Origin: Planctomycetales bacterium ZRK34 | Lineage (GTDB): Bacteria > Planctomycetota > Phycisphaerae > Phycisphaerales > Zrk34 | Direction of reading: 5' to 3' | DNA length: 64,000 bases | NCBI GenBank assembly: GCA_014873095.1 | Contig: CP050848.1 | Coordinates: forward strand, 2,170,001-2,234,000 | Shown: positions 47,280 to 53,756 of the stretch, piece after piece | Numbering within the stretch: the first letter of the stretch is position 1 | Layout: each line of letters begins with the position of its first letter | The notes under the pieces: model-generated | Told to the model about the DNA's origin: nothing | Seen by the model: only the letters and a program-made list of their open reading frames with translations | Database searches by the model: none | Position numbers and translations under genes: made by a program

Positions 47280-49331
47280 TCAGCGGCGGCGGCGACGGGC
47301 AGCCCCGACGGCCAGCAGGCCGAGCATGGACACGGCCGAGGCCGGCTCGGGGATCACCAGCGTCAGGCGGAACGCGTCCAGTGAAACGCCATCTTCGCGG
47401 GGCTGGAAGCGAAGCGTGTAGCTCTGACCGGCCACCAGCCGCCAGCCGGCGAGCGTCTCACCGCCGCCGGCGTCGGTGCTCTCAACCGCACCCATGTTCA
47501 ACCAGCCGCCAAACGAGGCGTCGCCGTTTTCGACGAAGCGATACCAGTCGGCGATGTCGCCGCCGAGCCCGTCTTCGAGACCGAGGATTCGAGCGTAGAG
47601 CGAATCGCTGTCACCACTGAATCCGTCGAAGCGGACCGAGAGCTGATAGAACCCGGACATCGGGGCGGTGATGTCGAAGTCGAGGTACGGACCGTCGTCG
47701 ACGGTGGCGGTGGTGTTGTAGATGTTGTTGTTGTCGTCGAGAACCTGCATGTAGTGACCGTTCTGCGCGTTGGCGAACTTACCGCCATCGCCGATGACCT
47801 CACCGTCGCCGAGGTTGCCCGTGCCGGCGTCGGCATCGACAAGCTGCCATGACTGGCCGGACCCGTTGTCGCCGCGGCGGGTGTAGTGCTCGGCCTCGAC
47901 TTCCAACTGGAGACCGGACACCGTCGGGCCCACACCGGTCGGCGCCGCCAGCACTTCGGGCTGCAACACCCAGGCGTCGACAGCCGCGGCGTCTTCACGC
48001 TGCGAGTAGCGGAGCGTGTATTCACCGGCGGAGGTGAAGTTGAACGTGATCGGATTACCGGCCGCGCCGGCAACATTGACCTCGGCTTCGCCGGTGCCGT
48101 CCCAGGAATTCGTGGCGAAGTTGCCATCGAGCGAAGCGCCCAGGGTCATTTCGTACCAGTCGGTGCCGACACCTTTGATTTCGACGATGTCGACGAACAG
48201 CGAATCCGACGAGCCGGCCGTTCCGGACGTGGTGGCATTGCCATCCCAGCGGGTGTAAAGCTGATAAACGCCGGGCGTGTCGATCTGAATCTTGTACTCG
48301 ATGGAGGGCGCGCCGTTCGGAGTGCCGGGCGAGCCGTTGTCCGGCAGCGACTGCACATACGTGCCGCGCGCATTGGTGAGGGTTCCGGCGCCAGCGCTTT
48401 CATCGGGTACGATCCGCCACCCGTTGGCGCCATCGTCGCTGCGGCTCATGAACACTTCGCCTTCGCCGACAATTCGATCGCTGGTGTTGTTGGCGGCGGT
48501 GTAAACAAAATCTGTCGTGTCGTAGTGGTACACAGCCGCGTGGTACTGATCGGTCACCTGCTGGCTGGTCAGGTCGGTGTTGTAGACAGCGACTTCGTCC
48601 ATGTATCCGCCGTACTGACGATTCAGGTGGTTGCCGCCGGAGCCGAGCTCGCCGAGGCGGACTTCATCGGAGAAGTTGAAGTTGTTGAAAGCGCCGCTGC
48701 CGGAAGCGACGTTGTTGCCGTCGACGTAGAGGTTGATCTGGCCGGAGCCCTGGTTCCACGTGGCGGCGACATGATGCCACGCACCGTCGTCGAGATTCGC
48801 ATCGCCGGCGGTCTGCACATTCACGTTGGTCGCGCCGCGTGCGAACAGTCGCAACTCACCGGTCGGCTGAATGCCCAGGTGCAGTTCGTTCTGCCCGCCG
48901 AACCCGTCGCCGCCGCCTTCATCGGTGCCGTAGAACAGACCCACCGCATCAGTATCCGAAAGCTGCAGCGCGGACGTGTTGACCCACATCGAAACCGACC
49001 CGGCGGCCGAGCTCATGTTCACCGCCGTGGGAACAGTCACGCGGCTCGAGCTGCTGGAAGCATCCAACAGCGCCGAGGTGTTGGTCGAAGTAAACCCGCG
49101 GTAAGTCAGCGGTCGCGGGGCGGTCGACTGGTTCACTGTCACGCCCGCGCCGTAAGCGCCGTCGTTGGACCCGACCGCATCGGCGGCCGTGGTACCGGAC
49201 GCTTCATTGAAGTTGTAGTAGGCGGCCGCACCCTGGTCGATGCGCGTAACGTCTTCATATGTGATAGCGCCGAATGCAGGCCCCGCCGCCAGCGCGGCAA
49301 CCATGCCACAAATCATCTTCTTGATTTTCAT
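47280..49331 (-). CDS. PEP-CTERM surface protein with LamG and two CBM-like domains
   Basis: 683 residues from the ATG at 49331, which has GAGG 5 bases upstream; an ATG at 49346 is possible. A signal peptide (ICGMVAALAAGPAFGA) is followed by a LamG domain (about 35-260: AAAYYNFNEASGTTAADAVGSNDGAYG, SVSMWVN, GAWHHVAATWNQGSGQINLYVDG). Two similar beta-sandwich modules of the CBM6/CBM35 type follow (about 285-460 and 475-665), each ending in an YTLRxxxREDxxxxDA motif. A C-terminal IPEPASAVSMLGLLAVGAARRRRR targets exosortase. A sugar-binding surface protein is likely. A promoter with a GC dyad in the spacer is upstream. Confidence 0.88.
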   Translation of the reverse strand: MKIKKMICGMVAALAAGPAFGAITYEDVTRIDQGAAAYYNFNEASGTTAADAVGSNDGAYGAGVTVNQSTAPRPLTYRGFTSTNTSALLDASSSSSRVTVPTAVNMSSAAGSVSMWVNTSALQLSDTDAVGLFYGTDEGGGDGFGGQNELHLGIQPTGELRLFARGATNVNVQTAGDANLDDGAWHHVAATWNQGSGQINLYVDGNNVASGSGAFNNFNFSDEVRLGELGSGGNHLNRQYGGYMDEVAVYNTDLTSQQVTDQYHAAVYHYDTTDFVYTAANNTSDRIVGEGEVFMSRSDDGANGWRIVPDESAGAGTLTNARGTYVQSLPDNGSPGTPNGAPSIEYKIQIDTPGVYQLYTRWDGNATTSGTAGSSDSLFVDIVEIKGVGTDWYEMTLGASLDGNFATNSWDGTGEAEVNVAGAAGNPITFNFTSAGEYTLRYSQREDAAAVDAWVLQPEVLAAPTGVGPTVSGLQLEVEAEHYTRRGDNGSGQSWQLVDADAGTGNLGDGEVIGDGGKFANAQNGHYMQVLDDNNNIYNTTATVDDGPYLDFDITAPMSGFYQLSVRFDGFSGDSDSLYARILGLEDGLGGDIADWYRFVENGDASFGGWLNMGAVESTDAGGGETLAGWRLVAGQSYTLRFQPREDGVSLDAFRLTLVIPEPASAVSMLGLLAVGAARRRRR

Positions 49332-49392
49332 TTCAACCTCATTCACCGAAATGGATGCAGAATCTCATTCACCCAAACTGCTACTCATGTTT

Positions 49393-49486: not shown

Positions 49487-50656
49487 TTAACGCCGTTTGA
49501 CGTCGCGGCCGGCCTTGTCGAAATTGTCCCGCAGGTTGCCCGAAAGGATGCCGCGAGCGTCTCCGGGATCGTCAAACTGCCAGATCCGAATCGACGCAAA
49601 ACGCACCTGGGCCGTCCGCCATGCCGCCGGTCCGCCCCACTCCGGCAGCCACACGCCCAGCGTCATCTGCCCCCCCATCGCCGGCACATGCTTCGTGTTG
49701 CGACCGATCAGCCGCCCGTCGATCCAGTGCGTCGCCGACACCCCCGCATGCACCGCATACCGATCGGGCCCCAACCGCTTCAACGGATTGCCCAGGTACT
49801 TCTCAAACGCGACCGCCTTATCCGCCACCCACCAATAGCCTTCAAATTCCACCACCTGCTCGTCGGTGATCTCCGGCAGCTCGCGCAGCTCCGTTCGCCA
49901 GTCAGTCGTATACGTGTGGTATTCACCGTCGGCAATGGGGCCGACCTCGTAAGTTTGCCAGTCGTAGCGGTTCTGACAGAACGTGTTGTACAGACCATGA
50001 TCGAAGTCGCCGCGCTTGCCGAGTTCGGGGAAGTCGATTTCCGACCAGTACTCATTCTGCGGCCCGTTGTACGCCGGCATGTGCGGGTTGTACATCGGCG
50101 TCGCCTCGACGAATTGTTCCTTCATCTCGGGCGGCACCTGCACCCACCGATACCCATACGTCCACAGCGCCGGCACACACCCCTTCGGCCGCGCCGGGTC
50201 CGCCGGCCCGCCTTCGTGCGGCTGCTTCGACCCGACCTTCATCACGATCTCGAATCGACCCGAACAGAAAAATTCGTGCGACACGATCACCCCGCCGACG
50301 CGATCGGCCTTGCCCCACCGCCCGACGATCGGCCCGTCGTATTCATCCCCGTGCGCCCGGCACACCAGCACCGGCTTCGTCTTGCCGCCGACTTCATCCT
50401 CGACGAAGAACACGTTCTCCGGCACCACCCCGTGATTGCCCGCCCCCCAGTGATTGCGCGGCACATACCACGTTTCTTTGTCGAGTTCGCCCCCAGCAAA
50501 ATGTTCATCAACAACCTGCCGCGCTTGTTCCGGCAGCGCCGGCACCTGCGCCTGACAGCCGGCAACACAAACTAATTGAACCACCAAGGCGCCAAGGACA
50601 CCAAGCAAGAGAATGTTGACAGGATGAACAGGATAACAACAGGATTCAATTGGCAT
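49487..50656 (-). CDS. GH16-like secreted lipoprotein (kappa-carrageenase/agarase-like) with repeat-derived signal peptide
   Basis: 389 residues from the ATG at 50656. GH16-like motif EIDFPE (E206, D208, E211) within NEYWSEIDFPELG, with GRFEIVMKVGS before it, an open cleft Trp-rich segment (ALWTYGYRW) and VSATHWIDGRLI near the end. The lipobox VAGC (C34) follows a hydrophobic ILLLGVLGALVVQLVCV stretch. Residues about 8-26 lie within the left arm of a long inverted repeat (50578-50714) present on both strands, so the repeat supplies the signal peptide. Upstream in-frame codons (up to 50734) are repeat translation and are not trusted. It may be recently altered at its start. The substrate is unknown. 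Confidence 0.8.
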   Translation of the reverse strand: MPIESCCYPVHPVNILLLGVLGALVVQLVCVAGCQAQVPALPEQARQVVDEHFAGGELDKETWYVPRNHWGAGNHGVVPENVFFVEDEVGGKTKPVLVCRAHGDEYDGPIVGRWGKADRVGGVIVSHEFFCSGRFEIVMKVGSKQPHEGGPADPARPKGCVPALWTYGYRWVQVPPEMKEQFVEATPMYNPHMPAYNGPQNEYWSEIDFPELGKRGDFDHGLYNTFCQNRYDWQTYEVGPIADGEYHTYTTDWRTELRELPEITDEQVVEFEGYWWVADKAVAFEKYLGNPLKRLGPDRYAVHAGVSATHWIDGRLIGRNTKHVPAMGGQMTLGVWLPEWGGPAAWRTAQVRFASIRIWQFDDPGDARGILSGNLRDNFDKAGRDVKRR

Positions 50657-50714
50657 CCTGTTCATCCTGTCAACTGCTTTTTTCTTCTTGGTGTCCTTGG
50701 CGCCTTGCTGGTTC
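50578..50714. repeat. 137-bp inverted repeat (GGCGCCAAGGACACCAAG type)
   Basis: Left arm 50578-50634 and right arm 50655-50714 are near-perfect reverse complements, each about 57-60 bases, around a 20-base loop. Both arms carry GGCGCCAAGGACACCAAG and TTGACAGGATGAACAGGAT. Read outward from either side they produce a similar peptide (QGAKDTK, VDRMNR). The left arm overlaps the start of the GH16-like gene. Confidence 0.92.
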
Positions 50715-50744
50715 ACGTATTTCATTTCGATCACCGAAAGCGCG

Positions 50745-53681
<2,937 letters not shown>

Positions 53682-53756
53682 CGAAGTTCTCTTTTCGGGG
53701 TTCAAGCCCCAAGTTTATCAGCCGCGGGCGCGGTCGCAAACAGGCGGGTAGAACCC

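Follow-up and report, generated by a model that had tools for sequence, protein, structure and literature searches.

A small palindromic element inserted between two genes probably replaced the front of the signal peptide of a GH16-like enzyme in this Planctomycetota genome, and the enzyme is probably still routed through Sec; with fair confidence, we prefer this explanation of the sequence. The window (the whole 64-kb stretch of DNA analysed, genome positions 2170001-2234000) contains the following features of the locus, all read on the minus strand.

50745..53705, minus strand: gcvP (glycine dehydrogenase; PF02347, PF21478), the upstream gene, with its stop about 30 nt before the repeat
49487..50734, minus strand: GH16-like secreted-enzyme gene, frame open across the whole repeat, with candidate starts GTG 50734, ATG 50725, ATG 50665 and ATG 50656
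50687..50715, minus strand: outer 5' arm, encoding NQQGAKDTK, polar and basic
50650..50674, minus strand: inner 5' arm, holding the in-frame ATG 50665 and ATG 50656
50615..50639, minus strand: inner 3' arm, reading ATCCTGTTCATCCTGTCAAC on this strand and encoding HPVHPVN; inner module at 34 of 40 own-genome loci
50577..50605, minus strand: outer 3' arm, LGVLGALVV in the GH16-like frame; arm motif present in 20 of the 40 loci of this genome
50546..50575, minus strand: apparently retained native signal-peptide end, LVCVAGCQAQ (Cys codon 50555-50557), aligning with the signal-peptide end of a repeat-free ortholog

Nested hairpin and start of the GH16-like gene

The region 50577-50715 was predicted to fold into a nested hairpin with a minimum free energy of -98.5 kcal/mol (z -14.8), compared to a mean of -38.7 kcal/mol for shuffled sequences, none of which (0 of 200) equalled it. 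The outer arms of 29 nt each and the inner arms of 25 nt, which are 92% complementary, together pair about 50 to 55 bases per side, in agreement with the original prediction of a long inverted repeat pairing over nearly 60 bases. At 0 mismatches, each of the two core motifs was confined to the GH16-like locus within the window. A match of the inner hairpin (50612-50677) to the Rfam family mir-2985 was rejected as almost certainly meaningless (25.7 bits against a gathering threshold of 68).

Read from ATG 50656, the inner and outer 3' arms encode approximately residues 7 to 27, including ILLLGVLGALVV, which is the only strongly hydrophobic N-terminal stretch of the protein; this matches the earlier claim that an arm encodes residues 8 to 26 and most of the hydrophobic signal. 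The ATG at 50656, from which the gene had been proposed to start, does exist, but its use is not established: it is buried in a very stable predicted stem (unpaired probability of 0.02), which might hinder translation, and the n-region read from it has no K or R. ATG 50665 is likewise paired in the predicted mRNA. Since ATG 50725 and GTG 50734, which follow closely on the gcvP stop, are more open (unpaired probabilities of 0.62 and 0.82, respectively), we favor one of these as the probable start, which would be reached via coupling to the gcvP stop and would give a long basic n-region.

Two further parts of the original prediction stood only partly. The protein was called a lipoprotein, and a V-A-G-C lipobox is indeed present, but this assignment is doubtful because the lipobox is not conserved with the ortholog from genome G015, which has a type I site (VWA/AD, the slash marking cleavage) and no cysteine there. 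It was also called GH16-like; Pfam PF00722 scores of 19.4 and 20.7 bits were both under the cut-off of 22, but the E-x-D-x-x-E catalytic motif of GH16 is present in this protein and the ortholog (EIDFPE and ELDFPE). A PDB sequence search with the GH16-like protein gave no match, and its AlphaFold model was poor, with a pLDDT of 42.9 that was too low to use. Elsewhere in the window, at 47280-49346, is a LamG-domain protein with a C-terminus resembling a PEP-CTERM sorting tail.

A repeat-free ortholog and the origin of the signal peptide

The GH16-like protein was matched in 18 of the 201 genomes of the order, with full-length matches only in its own genome and in G015, a member of the same family. 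As the original prediction had proposed, a relative without the repeat could thus be compared: this closest ortholog (58% identical) is free of the repeat and carries an ordinary signal peptide of its own. From its second ATG, the N-terminus is MRINRSRVCLLAMFASLGVASVVWA/ADEGTPLPAVPDG, giving the signal peptide MRINRSRVCLLAMFASLGVASVVWA/AD. In the alignment, the counterpart stretch of the GH16-like protein consists of the repeat-encoded ILLLGVLGALVV followed by the native LVCVAGCQAQVPALPEQ. The hydrophobic peak stood at 3.09 in the repeat-bearing sequence, at 1.82 on joining the flanks directly and at 2.45 in the G015 ortholog; signal peptides were judged by hydrophobicity and the look of the cleavage site. 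Given the ordinary signal peptide of the ortholog and the retained native cleavage region, an existing signal peptide appears to have been truncated and patched. Most likely, the repeat replaced its front rather than producing secretion from nothing. The two outcomes originally offered, a newly created signal or a destroyed start, are refined accordingly, to a signal that was probably patched, not invented.

In the explanation that we favor, a small palindrome, either mobile or copied and forming a nested hairpin of about 140 bp, inserted into the narrow interval after the gcvP stop, where it deleted or pushed aside the first part of the sequence encoding the following gene's signal peptide. 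Translation would then cross the element, with the 5' arm providing a basic, polar n-region and the 3' arm a hydrophobic h-region, and these would join the native cleavage region, the enzyme probably still entering the Sec pathway. Such a replacement would work because, in at least one frame, the 3' arms have many codons with T as the second base, and the 5' arms are polar. What we infer from the DNA is that the element inserted, which start codon is used and that the enzyme is indeed secreted.

The repeat family and its genomic positions

A search of the 5.71-Mb single-contig genome with the 148-bp element gave at least 76 matches, which were merged by hand into about 40 loci (L047 to L086); 40 of 83 first-look candidates were scored, and this list is possibly incomplete. 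By fuzzy matching, 34 of the 40 loci had the inner module, 20 had an outer arm and, at the threshold used, 12 had the pair of outer arms. When 20 fuller copies were aligned, 80.4% of the cells paired in the nested structure, versus 34 to 45% when the alignment was slid. Covariation of the hairpin was modest, with 22 to 127 of 500 shuffles reaching the observed values depending on the measure, and conserved structure is therefore not claimed for the element. The most stable predicted folds among the 20 copies were those of L060 (-102.3) and the GH16 copy (-98.5), which for the latter fits a recent copy. With its dispersed copies and terminal inverted repeats, the element is an interspersed palindromic repeat of the MITE/REP-like kind.

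The strict inner module was present in 6 of the 392 genomes of the phylum, own genome included, where it had 16 forward matches. The outer arm alone occurred in at least 116 stretches in many phyla, 80 of them among the matches listed, which included Cyanobacteria, Verrucomicrobia, Sorangium, Lentisphaerae and Planctomycetes records. At these 80 listed cross-phylum loci, an inverted partner was found within 220 nt for 36 of the 90 arms and the inner module near none of them. The repeat had been assigned to a class found between genes in GC-rich genomes; its copies are interspersed and usually intergenic, but the outer arm, being in many phyla including cyanobacteria, is not confined to GC-rich genomes.

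In its own genome, where the elements are mainly intergenic, the element edge lay a median of 13 nt from the 3' end of a neighboring gene, with 26 of 45 edges no more than 20 nt away; for 5' ends, the median was 65.5 nt, and 3 of 32 edges came within 20 nt. These counts used a simple codon-usage gene finder, whose gene starts are guesses, and left out L048, which had no match at the threshold used. Since the elements settle just behind stops, in tightly packed operons they would land on the signal peptide of the next gene.

Side observations were made at three loci of this genome. At L077 (2829-3151; genome position approximately 3831667-3831989), three tandem 126-bp copies with differing outer arms (CTCCGTGG type) lie in 42-codon steps within a 448-aa open frame, about 1 kb from a RAYT-like gene. 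At L063 (3001-3029), a lone outer arm is situated at the overlap of two genes, and a 144-aa open frame begins inside the arm (MNHQGAKGTKVDMIMSQISGPDELT...). At L056 (1655-3151), the element directly precedes the apparent native signal peptide of a sulfatase-like gene, and the frame is open through the element.

Other putative repeat-derived signal peptides and alternative explanations

By eye, 1 of the 40 own-genome loci serves as a signal-peptide donor. Repeat-arm signal peptides thus look rare in this genome yet not unique, as others appear elsewhere in the order. Screening of 56 distinct arms from order-level loci yielded a single candidate, L227, which is identical to locus L311, and a set of 184 arms gave 32 read-through frames, of which 5 rows (4 genes) were judged by eye to be donors; the remaining frames were rejected because they start shortly after the arm or have an N-terminus that is not signal-like. 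In G021 (L311), the sequence is MAVQSKALLLLSAFICVHLWFTSSASA/AENG, where an outer-arm copy supplies the start codon and AVQ and a second repeat the hydrophobic part. In G031 (L303), three consecutive genes have signal peptides with YLCLSVLICGYLSL, HLCLSVFICGCLSL or an interrupted version, and in G081 (L376) a TPR protein has FLHLCLSVFICNSLTVTANA/AKLG. A long G031 protein (open frame of 1009 aa) has an n-region derived from small hairpins, as do G042 and G111; these hairpins are absent from the G135 ortholog.

Among the 90 arms of the 80 listed loci from many phyla, no convincing donor was seen by eye. In an 800-kb sample of G031 (40 evenly spaced 20-kb pieces; 523 genes called, 165 of them signal-like by a crude rule), there were 31 arms, and upstream of three genes an arm was in frame but was not needed by any of them. 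Reliance on a repeat arm in 0 of these 165 genes indicates that repeat-made signal peptides are uncommon.

The clearest case is a cluster of three neighboring genes in genus g26, which was compared among four congeneric genomes. Its squalene-cyclase-like gene (PF13243) in G031 is 98, 93 and 87% identical to those of G111, G042 and G135, respectively. The signal peptide includes an A-type arm (ATCTGTG repeats) in G031 and G135, a C-type arm (CTCTGTG repeats) in G111 and a C-type arm followed by a degenerate A-type arm in G042, so that one protein in four species has four differently assembled signal peptides. Across the cluster, 7 of the 12 gene copies had a match to a repeat arm that exceeded those of all 129 control windows, which were drawn from coding parts; two further copies, not counted, looked repeat-derived by eye, and three did not. 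In six outgroup genomes, 0 of 17 copies matched an arm better than the controls (of 18 possible, gene 2 in G081 was not found). The g26 cases were reached outward from repeat-rich genomes and are therefore not an unbiased count. In G111, the N-terminal coding region of gene 2 (L393) also holds a GTCATTCCCGC...GCGGGAATGAC palindrome, together with a GAAATCCGAAATC repeat, suggesting repeated insertions at one spot. At the GH16 locus as well as in the g26 cluster, part of the putative signal peptide comes from a repeat, and repeat-free relatives keep their own.

The hydrophobicities of the arms in their three frames were 2.15, 1.36 and -0.36 for the outer 3' arm of the GH16 copy, 2.30, 1.90 and 2.54 for the A arm and 2.00, 1.56 and 2.06 for the C arm, and 206 of 20,000 random 30-mers of the window reached 1.9. 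The 5' arms were polar in every frame. We propose that this combination, 3' arms hydrophobic in one to three frames and polar 5' arms, is the reason why the elements are able to replace a signal peptide. With frames in register, a codon with T as its second base in one arm corresponds to a codon with A there in the other, and therefore a palindrome that is read through is, in our reading, polar and then hydrophobic, the order of a signal peptide. Whether palindromic repeats repeatedly supply some Planctomycetota with signal peptides in a frame-tolerant manner, with the signal peptides of orthologs in one genus having switched repeat families while the mature squalene-cyclase-like proteins stayed 87 to 98% identical, we consider evenly balanced.

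The preference of the elements for gene 3' ends would also suit an ordinary intergenic hairpin behind gcvP (a terminator, mRNA stabiliser or passive repeat) that destroyed the GH16-like start, leaving a hydrophobic frame by chance and a silent or decaying gene. The base pairing of the starts within the element, the near lack of donors in the wide scan and the evenly spaced sample and the fact that one in three frames of this arm is strongly hydrophobic by chance point the same way. However, the gene body is intact, is 56% identical to the ortholog over the alignment and keeps the E-I-D-F-P-E motif, the frame is open across the whole element, and 50725 and 50734 offer accessible starts in frame; we regard this explanation as unlikely, though deserving some weight. 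A start downstream of the repeat, such as the in-frame GTG 50545, would make the protein cytoplasmic and the repeat a mere leader. This is improbable, as GTG 50545 is paired (unpaired probability of 0.03) and lacks a clear ribosome-binding site, the ortholog belongs to a secreted type, and the retained LVCVAGCQAQ resembles a signal-peptide end. A selfish element that codes for protein, like the Rickettsia RPEs, and is under selection for an open frame on entering genes would account for both strands being open through the GH16 copy (139 aa plus, 415 aa minus) but is very improbable, as stops or short open frames predominate among the 30 peptide matches in the own genome, and the elements are mainly intergenic.

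Relation to known repeats and significance

Replacement of a signal-peptide front by a palindrome resembles the case of the Yersinia RU-2/YPAL element in YPO1552, where the repeat forms residues 1 to 30 of a predicted signal peptide (1 to 41) and relatives without RU-2 have unrelated signal peptides of their own (Delihas 2007, PMC2759123, PMC2229807). By analogy, in both cases a small mobile palindrome would form part of the signal peptide and repeat-free relatives keep their own. Unlike YPO1552 as described there, the present case is from another phylum and has a close repeat-free ortholog and a retained native cleavage region, and the g26 orthologs carry different repeats at the same place. 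The RPEs, as outlined in a MITE review (PMC10969869), are palindromic repeats of about 150 bp adding in-frame peptides to genes. They share with the present elements the contribution of an in-frame peptide, but are described as lying often inside genes of many functions, whereas those described here are mostly intergenic and contribute a signal peptide.

The REP and REPIN sequences, associated with RAYT transposases, are described as short extragenic palindromes in many copies (PMC3733652, PMC2817692, PMC3116915). The present elements are likewise many-copy palindromes, and this genome has eight RAYT-like (PF01797) genes, but they differ from the REPs so described in their long nested arms and 8- to 9-nt internal periodicity. 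Copies were found within the 1.5-kb flanks of only one of the eight PF01797 loci; a RAYT partner was therefore rejected, and no mobiliser is claimed.

No open-licence PMC paper was found with the literal element sequence, and in such papers the only precedents found for repeat-made signal peptides were those of Delihas and the RPEs. A repeat-made signal peptide is therefore of a known kind; what sets the present case apart is its host group, a native end that was retained, the recurrence in several genes and the repeat-to-repeat turnover between species, and no report of these was found in open-licence PMC papers.

The finding shows how protein export could be rewired or rescued by junk-like repeats, and offers a simple coding reason for palindromes suiting the role of a signal peptide. 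It is also a warning that gene callers may misplace the start of a secreted protein when such a repeat is close by. The g26 cluster provides a direct test case, with one protein and four signal-peptide assemblies in four species.
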